This document shows, in pieces, positions 1,498-26,963 of a DNA stretch of 64,000 bases. Each line of letters starts with the position of its first letter. Position 1 is the stretch's first letter. The stretch lies in assembly GCA_947473805.1 (NCBI GenBank), contig CANJGB010000008.1, positions 1 through 64,000 of the forward strand. Reading direction: 5' to 3'. The notes under the pieces are model-generated. The model had not been told where the DNA came from, did no database searches, and was given only the letters and a program-made list of their open reading frames with translations. Made by a program: the position numbers and the translations under genes. The DNA is from Alphaproteobacteria bacterium. GTDB lineage: Bacteria; Pseudomonadota; Alphaproteobacteria; Ferrovibrionales; Ferrovibrionaceae.

Positions 1498-4257
1498 ATG
1501 AACGTCGTCGTCGTCGAATCCCCGGCCAAAGCCAAGACCATCAATAAGTACCTCGGAGACGATTTCCGGGTGCTTGCCTCCTATGGCCATGTTCGCGACC
1601 TGCCCTCGAAAGACGGCTCGGTCCTGCCCGAGCAGGACTTCGAGATGCTTTACGAGACAGATCCGCGGTCGGCCAAGCAGCTGGCCGAGATCGCCCGGGC
1701 CCTCAAGGGCGCGACCACCCTTTATCTCGCCACCGACCCCGACCGCGAGGGCGAGGCGATTTCCTGGCACGTCCTCCAGGCCCTGACCGAGAAGAAGGTC
1801 ATCAAGGGGATCGACGTCAAACGCGTGGTGTTCAACGAGATCACCAAGTCGGCTGTGACCGATGCGATGAAGCATCCGCGCGATCTCGACATGGCGCTGA
1901 TCAATGCGCAGCAGGCGCGCCGCGCGCTGGACTATCTCGTCGGTTTCACACTGTCGCCGGTGTTGTGGCGCAAGCTGCCCGGCGCGCGCTCGGCGGGTCG
2001 TGTGCAATCCGTCGCCCTTCGCCTGGTGTGCGAGCGTGAGCTCGAGATCGAGGCGTTCCGGCCGCGGGAGTACTGGTCGATCGAAGTCGATTTCAAAACC
2101 GCCGCCGGCGGCACGTTCGCTGGCCGCCTGACCCATGTGGATGGCCGCAGGCTCGACAAGTTCGACCTGCCCGACCAGGCCTCGGCCGCGGCCATCACCG
2201 CGCGCCTGAACAAGGGCGGCTTCAAGGTGTCCGAAGTCGGCATCAAGCCGGCCAAGCGCCACCCCGCTCCGCCATTCACCACCTCGACGCTGCAGCAGGA
2301 GGCGTCGCGCAAGCTCGGCTTCGGCGCGAAGCGCACGATGGAAATTGCCCAGCGCCTCTATGAGGGCATCGATCTCGGCGGCGAGACTGTAGGCCTCATC
2401 ACCTATATGCGTACCGATGGCGTTTCCATCGCCGACGAGGCCGTGGCCGGCGCCCGCAAGACCATCGGCGCCGAATTCGGCAAGGACTACGTGCCCGGCG
2501 TGCCGCGCATCTACAAGACCAAGCAGAAGAACGCCCAGGAGGCGCACGAGGCGATCCGCCCGACCGACTTCGACCGCAAGCCGGAAGACATGGCCCGTCA
2601 CCTGGACGAGCAGCAGCGCAAGCTCTACGAGCTGATCTGGAAGCGCGCGCTGGCCAGCCAGATGGAATCCGCCGACCTCGAGCGCACCACCATCGACATC
2701 GCCAACGATGGCGGCGATCTCGGTCTGCGCGCGACCGGTTCGGTCATCGTGTTCCCCGGCTTCCTCAAGCTCTACGAGGAAGGTGCCGACGACCGCAGCG
2801 CCGACGACGAGGACAGCACGCGCCTGCCCAAGGTTACGGCGAACGAGTCGCTGAACCGCGAGCAGGTCCGCCCCGAACAGCATTTCACCGAACCGCCGCC
2901 GCGCTATTCCGAAGCCAGCCTGGTGAAGAAGCTGGAGGAGCTCGGCATCGGCCGTCCGTCCACTTATGCCTCGATCCTGTCGGTGCTGCAGGACCGCAAC
3001 TATGTCCGCCTCGACAAGAGCCGCTTCATTCCGGAAGACAAGGGCCGCCTCGTCACCACGTTCCTGACCGAGTTCTTCGAGCGCTACTTCGCCTACGACT
3101 TCACCGCCAACCTCGAAGATCGCCTCGACGATGTCAGTGGCGCGCGCATCGACTGGAAATCAGTGTTGCGCGACTTCTGGCTGCCCTTCTCGACGCTGCA
3201 GGGCCTGAACCCCGTCCCGACCGAGGAAATCCTTTCCGTCAAGCAAGCCATTGCCAAGCTCGATGAGGTTATCGGCAAGCGCAGCGTGGTGATCGACCGC
3301 ATCGACGCGGCACTCGGCCCGCACTTTTTCCCGCCGCGCGAAGACGGCACCGACGCGCGCACCTGCCCCGCCTGCACCGAAGGCCGCCTCGGCATCAAGC
3401 TGGGCCGCAACGGTGCCTTCATCGGCTGCTCGCGCTACCCGGATTGCAAGTTCACCAAGGCGCTCGCGATCAACGATAACGATGCCAATGGCGTCCTGAC
3501 GGCCGATGGCCCGAAGCATCTCGGCGATGATCCAGTCTCGGGTCTGCCCGTCACGCTGCGCATGGGCCCGTACGGCCCCTACGTCCAGCTGGGCGAGGCC
3601 GAGGGCGAAGGGAAAAAGAAGACGCGGCCCAAGCGCGCCTCACTGCCCAAGGGCACGCCGCTCGACACCGTCGATCTCGCCATGGCGCTGGGCCTGCTGG
3701 CCCTGCCGCGCGTGGTGGGCCTGCATCCGGAAGGTGGCCAGGAAATTCTCGCCGGCCTCGGCCGCTTCGGCCCCTATGTGAAGCATGAGAACACCTATGC
3801 CAGCCTCGATGCGGACGAGAGCCCGCTGACGGTGGGCCTCAACCGTGCGGTCGACCTGATCGCGCAGAAGATTGCCCGCGGCGCGGCGCGGCGCCAGGGT
3901 GGCAAGGTGCTACGCGCTGTCGGCCCGCATCCGGCCGACCAGGCGCCGATCGAGATCGTCGAGGGCAAGTACGGCAATTATCTGCGCCACGGCAAGGTCA
4001 ACGCCACCCTCCCCAAGGACATGGCGCCCGAGGCGGTGACGATTGAGTTCGCCGTCGAGGCGCTGGCTGCCCGCGCCGGTGCGAAGGGCAAGGGTCGCGG
4101 CGCGGTGAAGAAGGCCGCCACCGCAAAGGCCAAGCCGGCACCTGCGGCGAAGAAGAAGACGGCCGCCAAAAAGAGGGCCGCCGCGCCCAAGGCCGCTCCG
4201 AAAAAACCAGCACCCAAGAAGGCGGCGCCGAAGCGTGTCGCTGCCGGCGGGGCGTGA
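1498..4257 (+). CDS. topA: DNA topoisomerase I
   Basis: Type IA topoisomerase, which relaxes negative supercoils by nicking and passing one strand. The TOPRIM domain opens with VESPAKAKT and has D80-x-D82-x-E84 (ATDPDREGE). The active tyrosine is Y303 in TYMRTD. One C4 zinc finger is clear (C623, C626, C644, C650), followed by three Topo-C repeats (GPYGPYVQLG, FGPYVKH, YGNYLRHG). The last ~50 residues are a Lys/Ala/Pro-rich tail, probably a DNA-binding extension. The start MNVVVVESPAKAK matches the family; no strong ribosome site is seen. At 919 residues it is full length. Its stop overlaps the rnr start (GTGA). Confidence 0.97.
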   Translation: MNVVVVESPAKAKTINKYLGDDFRVLASYGHVRDLPSKDGSVLPEQDFEMLYETDPRSAKQLAEIARALKGATTLYLATDPDREGEAISWHVLQALTEKKVIKGIDVKRVVFNEITKSAVTDAMKHPRDLDMALINAQQARRALDYLVGFTLSPVLWRKLPGARSAGRVQSVALRLVCERELEIEAFRPREYWSIEVDFKTAAGGTFAGRLTHVDGRRLDKFDLPDQASAAAITARLNKGGFKVSEVGIKPAKRHPAPPFTTSTLQQEASRKLGFGAKRTMEIAQRLYEGIDLGGETVGLITYMRTDGVSIADEAVAGARKTIGAEFGKDYVPGVPRIYKTKQKNAQEAHEAIRPTDFDRKPEDMARHLDEQQRKLYELIWKRALASQMESADLERTTIDIANDGGDLGLRATGSVIVFPGFLKLYEEGADDRSADDEDSTRLPKVTANESLNREQVRPEQHFTEPPPRYSEASLVKKLEELGIGRPSTYASILSVLQDRNYVRLDKSRFIPEDKGRLVTTFLTEFFERYFAYDFTANLEDRLDDVSGARIDWKSVLRDFWLPFSTLQGLNPVPTEEILSVKQAIAKLDEVIGKRSVVIDRIDAALGPHFFPPREDGTDARTCPACTEGRLGIKLGRNGAFIGCSRYPDCKFTKALAINDNDANGVLTADGPKHLGDDPVSGLPVTLRMGPYGPYVQLGEAEGEGKKKTRPKRASLPKGTPLDTVDLAMALGLLALPRVVGLHPEGGQEILAGLGRFGPYVKHENTYASLDADESPLTVGLNRAVDLIAQKIARGAARRQGGKVLRAVGPHPADQAPIEIVEGKYGNYLRHGKVNATLPKDMAPEAVTIEFAVEALAARAGAKGKGRGAVKKAATAKAKPAPAAKKKTAAKKRAAAPKAAPKKPAPKKAAPKRVAAGGA

Positions 4258-6488
4258 GCAAGAAGCCCGTCACCCCGGCGCCGCTCCCCACGCGGCAGCA
4301 GATCCTGGACTTCATCAAGAGCCAGCCGGGCAAGGTCGGCAAGCGCGAGATTGCCAAGGCCTTTGCCATCGGCGCGGCCGACAAGGTGTGGCTGCGCGAC
4401 CTGTTGCGGAGCATGGAACGCGAAGGCCATGTCGATCGTGGCCACGGCAAGCGGCTGGCCCCGGCGGGCACGCTGCCGGAAGTTTCGATCCTCGATATTG
4501 CCGACACCGATGTCGACGGCGAACTGATCGCCCGCCCTGTGAACTGGACCGGTGACGGCCCGCCACCGAAAATCATCATGGTGCCCGGCGGCCGCGACCT
4601 GGGCGATGTGGGCATCGGCGACCGCATCATGGCGCGCGTGCGTCGCGTCGGCGGCAAGACCTACGAGGGTCGGCTTGTCCGCATCCTCAAGGCGGCGCCG
4701 GAAGACATTGTCGGCATCTATTCCAGGACGGGCGCCGAGGGGCGCATCCAGCCAACCGACCGCAAGCAGCGCGACGAATTCATCGTCACCGACGAGCAAC
4801 GCAACGGCGCCGAAAACGGCGAGTTCGTCCTCGCCGAAATCCTGCCCGGCAAGTCGCTCGGCCTCCGCCACGCCCGCGTCAAGGAGCGGCTGGGCAAGAT
4901 GGGCGATCCGCGCAGCCTCAGCCTGATTGCCATCCACAGCCACGACATCCCCACCCGCTTCAGCCAGGCCGCGCTGGACGAAGCCGCCGTCGCGCCGCCG
5001 CCGAAGCTTGAGGGCCGCGAAGACCTGCGCAACGTCCCGCTGATCACCATTGACCCCGAGGATGCCCGCGACCGCGATGATGCCGTCTGGGCAGTGCCGG
5101 ACCCGGACCCGAAGAACAAGGGCGGCTGGCACGCCATCGTCGCCATTGCCGACGTCGCCGCCTATGTCCGCCCGAACTCTCCGCTCGATCACGAGGCGCG
5201 CAAGCGCGGCAATTCGGTCTACTTCCCCGACCGCGTCGTGCCGATGCTGCCCGTGGCGCTGTCGAACGGCCTATGCTCGCTGCACGCGGACCAGGACCGC
5301 GCCTGTCTCGCCGTCCGCCTCTGGCTGGACGCAGATGGCAACAAGCTGCGCCACCAGTTCGTGCGCGGCCTGATGCGCTCACGCGCCGCGCTTAGCTACT
5401 CGCAGGTTCAGCACGCCCATGACGGGGAGCCCGACGAGGCGACGCAGCCACTGCTCAAGAGCATCATCGAACCGCTGTACGGCGCCTATGCGGCACTGTC
5501 GGCGGCACGCGACCGGCGCCAGCCGCTGAGCCTCGATCTGCCCGAGCGCAAGGTCGAGATCGGCGAGGATGGTTTCATCGCCCGTATCCGCCCCTATGAA
5601 CGCTTCGACGCCCACAAGCTGATCGAGGAGTTCATGATCCTGGCCAACGTCGCGGCGGCGGAAACGCTGGAAGCGGTGAAACGGCCCTGCATGTACCGCG
5701 TGCACGACGTGCCCTCGACCGACAAACTCGAAAGCCTGCGACAGTTCCTCGAGAGCATGGGCCTGCGCCTCGCGCGCGGGCAGACAATAAGACCGTCATA
5801 TTTCAACCGTATCCTGGCCGAGGGACACGGCAAACCAAACGAGCACATCCTGAACAAGGTCGTCCTTCGTAGCCAGATGCAGGCGCTCTATTCCGGCGAG
5901 AACCGCGGGCATTTCGGTCTGGCGCTCAAGCGCTACGCCCACTTCACCTCGCCGATCCGCCGCTATTCCGACCTGCTGGTCCATCGCGCGCTGGTCGATG
6001 GCCTGCGTTTCGGCAACGATGGCCTCAGCGATTGGGATGTCGATCACTTCGACGACACCGCCGAACACATCTCTATGACCGAGCGCCGCGCCATGACGGC
6101 CGAGCGCGACGCGCTGAACCGCTTCACCGCCGCCTTTATGTCCGACCGCGTTGGCGCGGAATTCACCGGACGCATTTCCGGCGTCACCCGGTTCGGCCTG
6201 TTTATCGAACTGGAAGATACCGGCGCCGACGGCCTGATCCCCATCGCGTCGATTGGCGACGATTATTACGTCCACGACGAAAAGCACCACGCCCTTGTCG
6301 GTCGCAACCGGGGGCGCGCCTTCCGCCTCGGCGACCGCGTGCTGGTCAAGCTTGAGGAAGCCGACCTCGTCACCGGTGGCTTGAAGCTGTCGCTGGTGCG
6401 CGACCTCGACGAGACGAGGGGCAAGGCGCCGGGCGGGGCGCGGCGTTCCGGCCCGGCGAAGCGATACGGCGGAAAAAAGCGCAGATAG
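4254..6488 (+). CDS. rnr: Ribonuclease R
   Basis: A 3'-to-5' exoribonuclease that degrades structured RNA. The 744 residues hold an N-terminal winged helix (~10-75), OB/cold-shock folds (~80-240), the RNB catalytic domain (~255-585) with the acidic set D267, D273, D275, D276 in DPEDARDRDDAV, and an S1 domain (~635-720, GRISGVTRFGLFIEL). It ends in a basic tail. The GTG start sits in the topA stop (GTGA overlap), implying translational coupling. The topA-rnr order is common in Alphaproteobacteria. Confidence 0.96.
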   Translation: MSKKPVTPAPLPTRQQILDFIKSQPGKVGKREIAKAFAIGAADKVWLRDLLRSMEREGHVDRGHGKRLAPAGTLPEVSILDIADTDVDGELIARPVNWTGDGPPPKIIMVPGGRDLGDVGIGDRIMARVRRVGGKTYEGRLVRILKAAPEDIVGIYSRTGAEGRIQPTDRKQRDEFIVTDEQRNGAENGEFVLAEILPGKSLGLRHARVKERLGKMGDPRSLSLIAIHSHDIPTRFSQAALDEAAVAPPPKLEGREDLRNVPLITIDPEDARDRDDAVWAVPDPDPKNKGGWHAIVAIADVAAYVRPNSPLDHEARKRGNSVYFPDRVVPMLPVALSNGLCSLHADQDRACLAVRLWLDADGNKLRHQFVRGLMRSRAALSYSQVQHAHDGEPDEATQPLLKSIIEPLYGAYAALSAARDRRQPLSLDLPERKVEIGEDGFIARIRPYERFDAHKLIEEFMILANVAAAETLEAVKRPCMYRVHDVPSTDKLESLRQFLESMGLRLARGQTIRPSYFNRILAEGHGKPNEHILNKVVLRSQMQALYSGENRGHFGLALKRYAHFTSPIRRYSDLLVHRALVDGLRFGNDGLSDWDVDHFDDTAEHISMTERRAMTAERDALNRFTAAFMSDRVGAEFTGRISGVTRFGLFIELEDTGADGLIPIASIGDDYYVHDEKHHALVGRNRGRAFRLGDRVLVKLEEADLVTGGLKLSLVRDLDETRGKAPGGARRSGPAKRYGGKKRR

Positions 6489-17240: not shown

Positions 17241-17629
17241 TCAGGCCTGCTTGGCCGCGGTCACTTCGACTTCAACCATGAACAGCGGGCTGGCCAGCGC
17301 TGACACGACCACCAGGGTGGACGCGACGCGCAGGCCCTTGAAGATCTCGTCGCGGGTGTCGCGCGCCGGATTGATGAATCCGGGCTGGTGACGAACGTCG
17401 TCATGCGGATAATGTCCTCCAGCGCCATGGCGCCTTCGGCCAGGATATTGCGGATATTCCCCCACACCTGCCGGTACTGGCCGGCAAAGTCATCGGGAAC
17501 GGTACCATCGGGCCGCACCGGCACCTGGCCGGACAGATACAGCGTCCGGCACCCGGCCGGCACTTCCACGCCATGCGCATAGGCGCTGGCGGGCTTCGCG
17601 ACACTTGCGGGATCGAGGCGCCGGAACAT
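17241..17629 (-). pseudogene. RidA/YjgF-family gene with a frameshift
   Basis: RidA proteins hydrolyse reactive enamines and imines to ketones. From ATG 17629 the frame gives SAYAHGVEVPAG, LYLSGQVPVRPDG and MTTFVTSPD, then loses homology. A second frame from about 17378 downward gives FINPARDTRDEIFKGLR and TLVVVSALASPLFMVEVEV, the normal RidA C-terminus. A one-base deletion near 17378 would explain this. The start shares a base with the pleD stop (TGATG). Sequencing error is possible, but the nearby oxidase is broken too. Confidence 0.8.
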
Positions 17630-19002
17630 CAGGCCGCAGCGGCGGCAATGACCCGGTCGCGGCCTTCGCCCTTTGCCCGGTACAGGGCGGCGTCGGCTTC
17701 CGCCAGGATGGCGGCGCAGTCGGTCACGCCGCGATGCACCGCGACGCCGATGGAACAGCTGACCTTCAGTGAACCCACCGCCGCATCGATGACAAACGGG
17801 GTCTCGCCGATGGCCTTGCGAATACGCTCCGCCACGACCAGTGCCGGCGCCATGTCGGTGTCCGGCATGACGATGACGAATTCCTCGCCGCCGAAGCGCG
17901 AGGCCAGGTCGACGCCGCGCACGTTGCGCTGGATGCGTTGCGACAGCTCACGCAGCACCTGGTCGCCGATCGGATGGCCATAGGTGTCGTTGATCGACTT
18001 GAAATAGTCGATGTCGAGAACCATTGCCGCCGTCGGCCGTACGCCGCCGTCGCGCGCCAGCAGGTTCGACAAATGGGTTCCCATGTACCGCCGGTTGTAC
18101 AGGCCGGTCAGCGGGTCGGTGACCGCAAGCGCCATGCTGGCGTGGTAGTTCTGCCGCAGCCGGTCCTGGTAGCGCTTGCGGCGGATCTGCGTGCGCGTAC
18201 GCGCCAGGAACTCGTTGCGGTCAACGGGGCGCATCACATAATCGGTGGCTCCGATTTCGAGGCCTTTGGCCAGGCGCTTCTCGTCGCCCTCGTCCACCAG
18301 CAGCAGCAGCAGCGGTACCTGTCGTGTCGCATCGGTCGAGCGGAACTGCGCGCACAGCCGCAGGCCATCGGCGTTCTGCATGCCGAGACTGACAATGATC
18401 AGGTCGAAATCCCCACCCCGTGCGGTAATCAGCGCCTCGGCCGGATCGGTCAGGACGGAAACGGCATAAGCGGGGCCCAGCGTCGCGGCCAGGCGTTCGG
18501 CGGTGCGCCGGTCGTCCTCGATGAGCAGCACACGAGCGCCCGGGAAATCGCCGGCGATCTGCAGGCTCGCCGGTTCGACCATGCCCAGCGTGTTGCTGGT
18601 CGCCTCTCGCAGGCGCAACTCGTCCATCATCAGCTTAAGCCTGACGAGCGAGCGCAGGCGCGCAAACAGCGCGATGTCGTTGACCGGCTTGGTCAGGAAA
18701 TCATCGGCGCCGGCGGCCAGGCCCTGCACGCGGTCAGAGGGGTCGCTGAGGGCCGTGACCATGATGACGGGAATGTGGGCCAGCGCGGCATGGGCCTTAA
18801 GGCGGCGGCAAACCTCGAAGCCGTCCATGCCGGGCATCATCACGTCGAGCAGGATGGCGTCCGGCGGGTCCTTCTCCGCCAGGGCAAGGCAGTCGGGACC
18901 GTTTGACGCCGTCGTAACCTCGAAATACTCGCTGCTGAGTTTGGCTTCGAGAACTTTGACGTTGGGAAGGATGTCGTCGACGACCAGGACCCTGGCTGTC
19001 AT
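17629..19002 (-). CDS. pleD: PleD-type diguanylate cyclase response regulator
   Basis: Makes c-di-GMP at the cell pole in Caulobacter-type development. Of 457 residues, REC1 (~1-120) has phospho-acceptor D53 (ILLDVMMPGMDG), matching Caulobacter PleD. REC2 (~155-280) reads IIVSLGMQNADG, lacking the acceptor Asp, so it is an adaptor. The GGDEF domain (~300-450) has active GGEEF at 371-375 and an RGVD I-site five residues upstream for product inhibition. It lies six bases downstream of divK, in a probable operon. Confidence 0.96.
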   Translation of the reverse strand: MTARVLVVDDILPNVKVLEAKLSSEYFEVTTASNGPDCLALAEKDPPDAILLDVMMPGMDGFEVCRRLKAHAALAHIPVIMVTALSDPSDRVQGLAAGADDFLTKPVNDIALFARLRSLVRLKLMMDELRLREATSNTLGMVEPASLQIAGDFPGARVLLIEDDRRTAERLAATLGPAYAVSVLTDPAEALITARGGDFDLIIVSLGMQNADGLRLCAQFRSTDATRQVPLLLLLVDEGDEKRLAKGLEIGATDYVMRPVDRNEFLARTRTQIRRKRYQDRLRQNYHASMALAVTDPLTGLYNRRYMGTHLSNLLARDGGVRPTAAMVLDIDYFKSINDTYGHPIGDQVLRELSQRIQRNVRGVDLASRFGGEEFVIVMPDTDMAPALVVAERIRKAIGETPFVIDAAVGSLKVSCSIGVAVHRGVTDCAAILAEADAALYRAKGEGRDRVIAAAAA

Positions 19003-19008
19003 GTCGGC

Positions 19009-19374
19009 CTAGCCCAGAAAACGCTGGATGGTTTCGATGAACTTGCTGACCGAGATGGGCTTGGCGATATAGGCCTCGCAACCGCCATCGCGCATCTTCT
19101 CCTCATCGCCCTTCATGGCGAAGGCGGTGACGGCGATGACAGGGATGGTCCGCAAATTGTCGTCTTCCTTGATCCACTTGGTCACCTCAAGGCCTGAAAC
19201 CTCGGGCAATTGGATATCCATCAGTATCAGGTCCGGCTTGTGCTTGCGGGCAATCGCCAGCGCGTCCATGCCGTCGCGGGTCTGCAGGGTCTGATAGCCG
19301 TGGGCAACCAGCAGATCATGAAACAGCTTCATGTTCAGTTCGTTGTCTTCGACGATCAGAACGGTTTTGCTCAT
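19009..19374 (-). CDS. divK: Single-domain response regulator DivK
   Basis: The 121-residue receiver has the acidic pair E9/D10, acceptor D53 (ILMDIQLPE), the TAFAM switch region and KPIS lysine. In Caulobacter, DivK is phosphorylated by DivJ and dephosphorylated by PleC, and steers CtrA activity. Sequence, length and the downstream pleD gene all fit. A DivJ/PleC-like kinase is encoded at 31351 in this window. Confidence 0.96.
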
Positions 19375-24797: not shown

Positions 24798-24936
24798 CTT
24801 AGGCTGTTACAGGATTGCGTAACGCTCAGCCAGACGTTTCGGCCCCCGAACACGGCAATTGATGCCGCACCCCGCCGCAGCGGCACATTTTGCCTACGCA
24901 CAGGACCAAAACTCCCAACAAAATCAGGCATTTCGA

Positions 24937-24952
24937 TGGCACGCCTATTGCT
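24937..24952 (+). promoter_or_regulatory. Sigma-54 (RpoN) promoter of the GGDEF gene
   Basis: TGGCACG-ccta-TTGCT matches the -24/-12 consensus with correct GG to GC spacing. It ends 33 bases before the GGDEF ATG, leaving room for a start site near 24963 and the caggag ribosome site. An enhancer-binding activator would be required; none is encoded nearby. Confidence 0.8.
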
Positions 24953-24985
24953 TTGAGTCTCCGCAGCTGATGCAGGAGTTCAAAA

Positions 24986-25666
24986 ATGGCGGACATCGCG
25001 TTCTCGATGCCTGGTGAAGGGTTGCTGCCGGGGACCAACGGAGTCGGTCGCATCTCGTCGGCCATCTTTGGCCGTAACACGCGTGAGATTGCCCGCCTGC
25101 AGGTGGCCAACCTGATGCTGCACGAGGAAATTGCGCGCCACCAGCAGAGGATCGCCGAACTGGAGCACGCCTCGCTGACCGATACCCTGACCGGTACTCT
25201 GAATCGTGGCGGCTTCGAGGACGCCGTTCGCCGCACCCTGAGCGCCGCGCAGCGCCATGACGATGGCGGCGCCCTTGCCTATCTGGACTGCGACAGTTTC
25301 AAATCCGTCAATGACACGCTCGGTCACGACGCCGGCGATGCCGTACTGGCCGCGATCGGCCGCATTCTGAAACGCGACACGCGCACCACTGACTATGTCG
25401 CCCGCCTCCATGGCGATGAATTCGCTGTGCTTCTGGTGCGCTCCGGCATGCGGTTCGGCACGGCACGCCTACGCTTGATGGAGCATACGATCAACAATTC
25501 GACAGTCACCTTCCGAAACCGCGAGATTGCCCTGAAGATCAGCATGGGCATTGTCGGCTATGACAGCAGCGCCAGTTTCGACGACCTCATGCGCCGCGCC
25601 GACCGCGCCATGTACGAGCGCAAACACGCCCGCCGCGGCCAGGTCATCCCCTTTGCGGCGGAGTGA
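24986..25666 (+). CDS. GGDEF-domain protein, probable diguanylate cyclase
   Basis: A 226-residue soluble protein: a short N-terminal region, a coiled-coil-like stretch (~35-62), then one GGDEF domain (~65-220). The signature is RLHGDEF, with His for the first Gly; Asp-Glu-Phe and the metal Asp in YLDCDSFKSVND are kept, so activity is possible. An RTTD I-site lies five residues before it. A sigma-54 promoter precedes it, as often seen for motility or biofilm genes. It converges on the cyclase gene with a 23-base overlap. Confidence 0.88.
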   Translation: MADIAFSMPGEGLLPGTNGVGRISSAIFGRNTREIARLQVANLMLHEEIARHQQRIAELEHASLTDTLTGTLNRGGFEDAVRRTLSAAQRHDDGGALAYLDCDSFKSVNDTLGHDAGDAVLAAIGRILKRDTRTTDYVARLHGDEFAVLLVRSGMRFGTARLRLMEHTINNSTVTFRNREIALKISMGIVGYDSSASFDDLMRRADRAMYERKHARRGQVIPFAAE

Positions 25667-26963
25667 CCTGGTTCTCTGGAACCCGCACCACGGTGAATAT
25701 CTCCCGCGCCTCCCGAACGTCGCGCAACGCATGCTCGCCGAGTGACATCAGCCTCTCTGCCGCCTCGCCGGTTGCGTCACGGAAGCTCCGCGATACAACC
25801 AGGTGACGGGCGAGCGGTTTGCACAACACCTCCATCCGGGCCGCCTCGTTCACGGCCGGACCGACAACTGTAAAATCCAGACGGTCGGCAGTGCCGACAT
25901 TGCCGTACATCACCTCGCCGCGATGAAGCGCGATATCGAGCTCAAGCACCGGCATACCCGCAGCGGCGCGTTCGCGATTGAGGGTCGCCACGCGGTCTAG
26001 CGCATCGAGTGCCGCTTCAAGCGCCTTGTCACAGGTCTGGCCGCCCGCGCCCTCAATCGCGAATGTCGCCAGCACGCCATCGCCCATGAACTTCAGGATC
26101 TGGCCGCCCTGTTCCCGTACCGGTTCGCCAATACAGGCCAGATACTGGTTCAGCATCCCGACCACCGCCTCCGACCCGAGCTGGTCTGACAGCGCCGTAA
26201 AGCCGCGCAGGTCGGCGAAGAACAGGGCTGCGTCCATGCGCTGGACGGTTCCCAGTTGCACCTCCCCTGACAGCACATGCCGCGCCGCATCGGCGCCAAG
26301 ATAGGTATCCAGCAGGCCCTGCATGATGGGGTAGGCCGTTGCCGCCTTCAGCGCCAAGGCCAACGTCCCCATCAACTCTTCAAGAACGCGCAGTTCCGGT
26401 TCGGTAAAGCCCTCCGGTCGATCTGTCGCCCAGGAGGTGACGAGGCCGATCTGTCCGCCGCGCATCCTTTCGGCGGCCCAGCCGAAGCCGTAGACTAGGC
26501 CCAGCCAGTCGGTCAGGCCCTGGGCGCTGAATTCCTGCAGCGCGGGAAAATCCAGCACGGCCTGGGGCCCCGCAAGGCGGCGGTTGAGCTTCAGAATCCG
26601 GTTATTGAGCATGTAGAGGAACGGGCTGTTGTTCCAGTTCGCGCCCGCCCGGGCGTGGGAAAACTGGTCCTGCGCCACCCCGCGCCCGGCTCGCGCCCAG
26701 GTGTATCCATGCGCCAGAATCAGCGGGTGCAGTGTCGCCAGGGCGGCATATCCGCGGGCCAGCGGCAGGCCGGCGTCGAGCAGCCGATCGCAGAACCCGC
26801 CCACGATCGTCTCGACCTTGGCCGTCTCCAGGCCCTGGTTGATCAGCCAGGCGTGGATCGTCACCGGATCGAACGGGTATGAAGACCGGAGCGGCGACGG
26901 CGGCGGTGTTTCCTGGGAACTCAACACGACCCCATTCGAATGTTGGCGACGGTGCCCCGTCAT
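25644..26963 (-). CDS. Class III adenylate/guanylate cyclase
   Basis: A 439-residue protein. The N-terminal ~220 residues form an uncharacterised, possibly GAF-like sensor (GLVTSWATDRPEGFTEPELRV). The C-terminal catalytic domain shows FFADLRGFTALSD and FMGDGVLATF (both metal Asp residues), GEVMYGNVGTADRLDFT and GPAVNEAARME. It makes cAMP or cGMP from the NTP. No membrane helix is seen. The start is 35 bases from the divergent RidA-family gene. Confidence 0.88.
   Translation of the reverse strand: MTGHRRQHSNGVVLSSQETPPPSPLRSSYPFDPVTIHAWLINQGLETAKVETIVGGFCDRLLDAGLPLARGYAALATLHPLILAHGYTWARAGRGVAQDQFSHARAGANWNNSPFLYMLNNRILKLNRRLAGPQAVLDFPALQEFSAQGLTDWLGLVYGFGWAAERMRGGQIGLVTSWATDRPEGFTEPELRVLEELMGTLALALKAATAYPIMQGLLDTYLGADAARHVLSGEVQLGTVQRMDAALFFADLRGFTALSDQLGSEAVVGMLNQYLACIGEPVREQGGQILKFMGDGVLATFAIEGAGGQTCDKALEAALDALDRVATLNRERAAAGMPVLELDIALHRGEVMYGNVGTADRLDFTVVGPAVNEAARMEVLCKPLARHLVVSRSFRDATGEAAERLMSLGEHALRDVREAREIFTVVRVPENQVTPPQRG

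Follow-up and report, generated by a model that had tools for sequence, protein, structure and literature searches.

We analyze a stretch of 64,000 nucleotides (hereafter, the window) in which a gene for a single-domain GGDEF protein is preceded by a -24/-12 element of the sigma-54 type and, further upstream, by two copies of the palindrome GGCA-N5-TGCC (Table 1). The palindromes begin 83 and 55 nt ahead of the -24 element and lie 28 nt apart, center to center. From the -24/-12 element to the ATG of the GGDEF gene there are 33 nt, and the computed transcription start falls 22-24 nt ahead of that ATG. At its other end the gene converges with a class III nucleotide cyclase gene, with an overlap of 23 nt, and a similar nucleotide-cyclase neighbor is found again at other orthologs. 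A gene for a PleD-type response regulator, some 5.6 kb away, adjoins a DivK-like receiver gene, and pairs of this kind recur near several orthologs.

Table 1. Features of the window, with positions counted from its first letter
Feature	Position	Strand	Basis or remark
PleD-type response regulator	17629-19374	-	614 bits vs cut-off 474
Upstream palindrome 1, GGCAATTGATGCC	24854-24866	.	Putative enhancer site for flagellar activator
Upstream palindrome 2, GGCACATTTTGCC	24882-24894	.	Recurring GGCA-N5-TGCC
Predicted sigma-54 -24/-12 promoter, TGGCACG-CCTA-TTGCT (TGGCACGCCTATTGCT)	24937-24952	+	Exact consensus match, conserved before orthologs
Predicted transcription start	24962-24964	+	11-13 nt past GC, computed from position
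Ribosome-binding site AGGAG	24974-24978	+	Read from sequence
Single-domain GGDEF protein, 226 aa	24986-25666	+	ORF and Pfam
I-site RTTD, residues 133-136	25382-25393	+	Coordinates computed from ORF start
Active-site motif HGDEF, residues 142-146	25409-25423	+	Coordinates computed from ORF start
Class III nucleotide cyclase gene	25644-26963	-	Pfam Guanylate_cyc

The sigma-54 consensus is TGGCACG-N4-TTGCW, in the arrangement GG-N10-GC. The element before the GGDEF gene matches it exactly, with 10 nt between GG and GC, and is the sole exact match within the window. From the base composition of the window, 0.015 exact matches would be expected by chance in 64 kb on both strands and 1.6e-5 in the 139-nt upstream gap; the same composition predicts 0.78 for the whole genome, where five are found. 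At relaxed stringency the motif reaches only chance level: with up to one mismatch the genome holds 33 matches versus 42 for the reversed control, with no enrichment, and at two mismatches the window holds 8 versus a shuffle mean of 7.34. Genome-wide counting at up to one mismatch, not being above the reversed control, was dropped as evidence, and since the motif is weak by itself, the case for a promoter rests on its position, its conservation and the element upstream of it. The genome has one copy of rpoN (a single Sigma54_DBD match, 230.8 bits), on which transcription of the GGDEF gene would depend. The element also agrees broadly with the Caulobacter RpoN motif GGCNC-N4-CTTGC, as given in the part of the source available (PMC4287350).

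To examine conservation, relatives were gathered from 61 genomes by protein search and then from 387 genomes of the class by means of a profile (A1, built from 18 proteins). The profile includes loci whose promoter had already been seen, and the loci of the profile list were picked by protein score alone. Left out of the final count are L086 and L099, as near-identical loci, and the duplicates L025, L028 and L029; two loci initially passed over are included. With up to two mismatches, the -24/-12 element lies upstream of 80 of the 83 orthologs across Alphaproteobacteria (23/23 in the first set, then, in rank order of the profile list, 18/18 and 39/42), versus a mean of 1.6 (maximum 4) in dinucleotide shuffles and 2/83 for the reversed consensus. 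The three orthologs that miss out are L266 and L280, with three mismatches each, and L282, which has no match. When the scan is anchored on the profile, the element precedes 78 of 81 orthologs and is missing from all 33 paralogous GGDEF loci. An early scan from the most upstream start codon gave 27 of 28 ortholog loci, duplicates included, at the same threshold and 0 of 31 paralogs, with two further paralogs also lacking a match; in a start-anchored scan of 58 profile-list loci, 51 had the element (control, 2/58). A tree computed from 81 orthologs together with 31 paralogs places the paralogs on one side of a branch with support 99/84, and genes of DinB- (by eye), EipB-, RidA-, GDPD- and FemAB-like type recur as neighbors at many orthologs. 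Homologs on an Azospirillum brasilense plasmid record (NZ_CP059450.1; 223.9 bits to the profile) and in Azospirillum sp. TSH58 (224.1 bits) both carry the exact element TGGCACGGCGATTGCT. The preliminary description of this locus had proposed a near-perfect -24/-12 promoter at a fitting distance from the gene, and the exact match, its distance to the ATG and its presence across the orthologs bear this out; class-wide conservation, with its controls, supports a predicted sigma-54 promoter before the GGDEF gene.

Reading the upstream regions of the orthologs revealed GGCA-N5-TGCC as a recurrent sequence. Of 78 orthologs, 45 carry an exact copy in the 130 nt ahead of the -24 element, versus a mean of 0.37 and a maximum of 3 in shuffles; allowing one mismatch, the figure is 70 of 78 versus 6.4. 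The final set gives 47 of 80 with the palindrome, and 36 of 83 orthologs are missing at least one of the two, exact palindrome or promoter. Two flagellar genes of the window's genome, both named by Pfam, share the palindrome: flgE, with GGCAGGTTTTGCC 90 nt ahead of its -24 element, and the flagellin gene (L141), with GGCAAGAATTGCC at 4240 and the -24 element at 4327. Across 18 genomes of the same family, the combination of palindrome and -24/-12 element yields 29 listed places, in 13 of the genomes, versus 0 in reversed controls. The genes that follow comprise 11 GGDEF orthologs, 10 of FlgE/FlgF type and 8 unnamed (representatives identified by Pfam, the others by similarity of sequence). A looser pattern, applied to the window's own genome alone, gives 5 and 3 matches versus 1 and 1 in reversed controls, the GGDEF gene (twice) and flgE among them. 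The preliminary description had called for a search for an enhancer-binding protein site upstream, and this palindrome, common to the flgE and flagellin promoters, is a putative enhancer site.

Two observations stand beside this pattern. The unnamed genes behind the combined pattern in same-family genomes (L187, L190, L203, L211; L200, L209; L201; L202) are possibly unrecognized flagellar genes; four representatives were scanned, with neither a Pfam match nor a convincing one to NCBIfam. Separately, an exact -24/-12 match (L009, G000:C18:74017-74032) lies just ahead of a transglycosylase (SLT) gene, without the palindrome.

Flagellar control of the GGDEF gene is, on these sequence patterns, well supported, and the most likely activator would be FlbD. 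In the Caulobacter crescentus FlbD/FliX cascade, FlbD activates the sigma-54 promoters of late flagellar genes, according to the part of the source available (PMC3096577), and the likeness here is that the flgE and flagellin promoters share their palindrome with the GGDEF gene. Of the 21 genomes in the relatives set, 12 have an FlbD above the cut-off, and 175 of 387 class genomes have one at E <= 1e-180. FlbD is present in 69 of 92 genomes with an ortholog (E <= 1e-66) versus 106 of 295 others, an odds ratio of 5.3 that is not corrected for relatedness.

The palindrome could instead serve another flagellar activator, such as an enhancer-binding response regulator encoded on contig 18 (G000:C18:61275-62612; L003, L285). 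This protein, for which none of the best 25 NCBIfam models listed is over cut-off, is the third full enhancer-binding protein of the genome besides NtrX and NtrC, which are both over their cut-offs. FlbD itself was not found in the 95% complete assembly, where the best match reaches 355.6 bits (cut-off 750) and no credible fragment was seen. Among ortholog genomes, moreover, the palindrome is equally common without a FlbD call (12/19) and with one (29/54), so FlbD by name is less supported than flagellar control as such. Yet a search of 13 same-family genomes found FlbD above its cut-off in 10, and the recognition helix, nearly identical among the FlbD proteins of the family, differs in the contig-18 regulator. 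We therefore regard a different flagellar activator as rather unlikely, and FlbD as the preferred candidate.

The protein itself scores 126.8 bits against Pfam GGDEF (PF00990; cut-off 23.8) and 129.5 bits against TIGR00254 (cut-off 37.4). An RxxD I-site is common, though not obligatory, in diguanylate cyclases; here RTTD lies five residues ahead of the active-site motif. That motif departs from GG[DE]EF in that its first Gly is His, and we hence label the product a GGDEF-domain protein and probable cyclase; its Gly, Asp and Glu are otherwise invariant in an alignment of 18 sequences. The preliminary description was thus accurate in reporting His for the first Gly together with an intact I-site. 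The variant is not an oddity of the window gene, because all 17 same-family orthologs have HGDEF. In the tree of orthologs and paralogs it occurs in 15 rows and needs 3 changes. None of 58 further loci of the class has it (54 GGDEF, 2 GGDEY, 1 SGDEF, 1 AGDEF). HGDEF is also present in a GGDEF paralog from the same family (L161, G009), so the variant extends beyond the ortholog group of the window gene. AlphaFold2, run on the window protein with five relatives (mean pLDDT 82), gives a helix at residues 20-64 and the GGDEF fold, with low confidence for residues 1-28; the modeled N-terminal helix is probably a coiled-coil dimer stalk.

As the first Gly is replaced throughout the family and the window protein retains its I-site, one may ask whether it is a c-di-GMP-binding receptor acting through that site and not an enzyme. 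We think this unlikely. Besides the invariance of the remaining motif residues, two same-family HGDEF orthologs (L091, L095) have lost the I-site Arg (APED) that a receptor would need, and VCA0965 of Vibrio cholerae kept its activity with His at the first position of the motif, as reported in the available part of the source (PMC3974145). By analogy with VCA0965, HGDEF is probably compatible with cyclase activity, and the window protein would synthesize c-di-GMP. Both are first-position GGDEF variants, and VCA0965 still makes c-di-GMP; it differs in being a membrane protein with a native AGDEF motif, its His being an engineered variant (PMC3974145, same part).

The preliminary description had left the promoter's link to c-di-GMP as one of nitrogen or flagellar control; the flagellar half is supported by the palindrome common to flagellar promoters, and the nitrogen half is not supported. 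In the latter reading the sigma-54 promoter is real and is activated by NtrC or NtrX, which would tie nitrogen status to c-di-GMP. NtrC and NtrX are indeed the only enhancer-binding proteins of the genome over a named cut-off, and elsewhere in the genome -24/-12 elements stand before genes that, judged by eye, seem nitrogen-related. However, no palindrome lies within 180 nt of those nitrogen-like elements, and flgE and flagellin have it. NtrC sites follow the consensus TGCACC-N4/5-GGTGCA; the best candidate at the GGDEF gene has 4 mismatches, in a scan that barely detects the nitrogen-like promoters themselves (3-5 mismatches). Nitrogen control is less likely than flagellar control, and we consider it quite improbable. 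The nitrogen-like elements (L008 and L016), whose downstream genes by eye encode a regulator of ANTAR-like type and transport proteins of nitrate and urea type, are a separate set within the genome. Finally, that the -24/-12 sequence is fortuitous and the GGDEF gene uses another promoter is extremely improbable: the motif is at background at one or two mismatches in both genome and window, but 80 of 83 orthologs carry it against 1.6 expected, and 0 of 33 paralogs do.

Weighing these readings, we put at roughly three in four the probability that a diguanylate cyclase is hard-wired here into a sigma-54, FlbD-type flagellar regulon. The gene product would be a diguanylate cyclase, small and soluble, that combines a long N-terminal helix with a product-inhibition site. 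RNA polymerase with RpoN would transcribe the gene from the -24/-12 element when an enhancer-binding protein of the flagellar system, most probably FlbD, occupies the GGCA-N5-TGCC palindromes lying 40-70 nt upstream. If the Caulobacter cascade is a guide, the gene would be switched on only after the early flagellar base has been built. Hook, flagellin and the GGDEF cyclase would be activated together, so that a cell completing its flagellum would also be equipped for c-di-GMP synthesis. The c-di-GMP made by this cyclase may perhaps act in motor control or in exit from the motile state.

Several known systems resemble parts of this arrangement. No diguanylate cyclase gene is described as a member of the Caulobacter FlbD/FliX regulon in the part of the account available (PMC3096577). 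Caulobacter DgcB (PDB 6ttr/6tts) shares the combination of coiled coil and GGDEF domain (Foldseek TM-score to target 0.86, 26% identity) and, according to the portion of the source at hand, is tied to the flagellum by a physical link through the stator (PMC7885107), whereas the link predicted for the window gene is transcriptional. Orthology with DgcB was rejected: at 124.5 bits to the profile, it lies below many unrelated cyclases, the top one of which reaches 151.6. The best structural match to the window protein is SiaD-SiaC of Pseudomonas aeruginosa (PDB 7e6g), at 27% identity. Sigma-54 control of diguanylate-cyclase genes has likewise been proposed in Escherichia coli, where sigma-54 promoters were predicted before yeaJ and yhjK; these differ in being other genes in another class, with no shared flagellar enhancer described in the part of the source available (PMC3162934). 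A literature search covering titles and the starts of abstracts, with many subscription papers beyond reach, found no account of this gene, nor of any flagellar diguanylate cyclase under conserved sigma-54 control in Alphaproteobacteria.

Beyond the window, it seems likely that a single-domain cyclase is a standard late member of the sigma-54 flagellar regulon in much of Alphaproteobacteria, with HGDEF fixed in one family. This bears on the coupling between assembly of the flagellum and c-di-GMP in bacteria. In Caulobacter, the cyclases PleD and DgcB receive input from the state of the flagellum, according to the available part of the source (PMC7885107). A class-wide sigma-54 promoter with a flagellar enhancer at a cyclase gene would be a direct and testable transcriptional link, and Azospirillum brasilense, whose homolog has the exact promoter, offers a named, culturable organism in which to test it. 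If the proposal is true, completion of the flagellar base would switch on both the hook and a source of c-di-GMP, which suggests that flagellum building may trigger a signal associated with settling.
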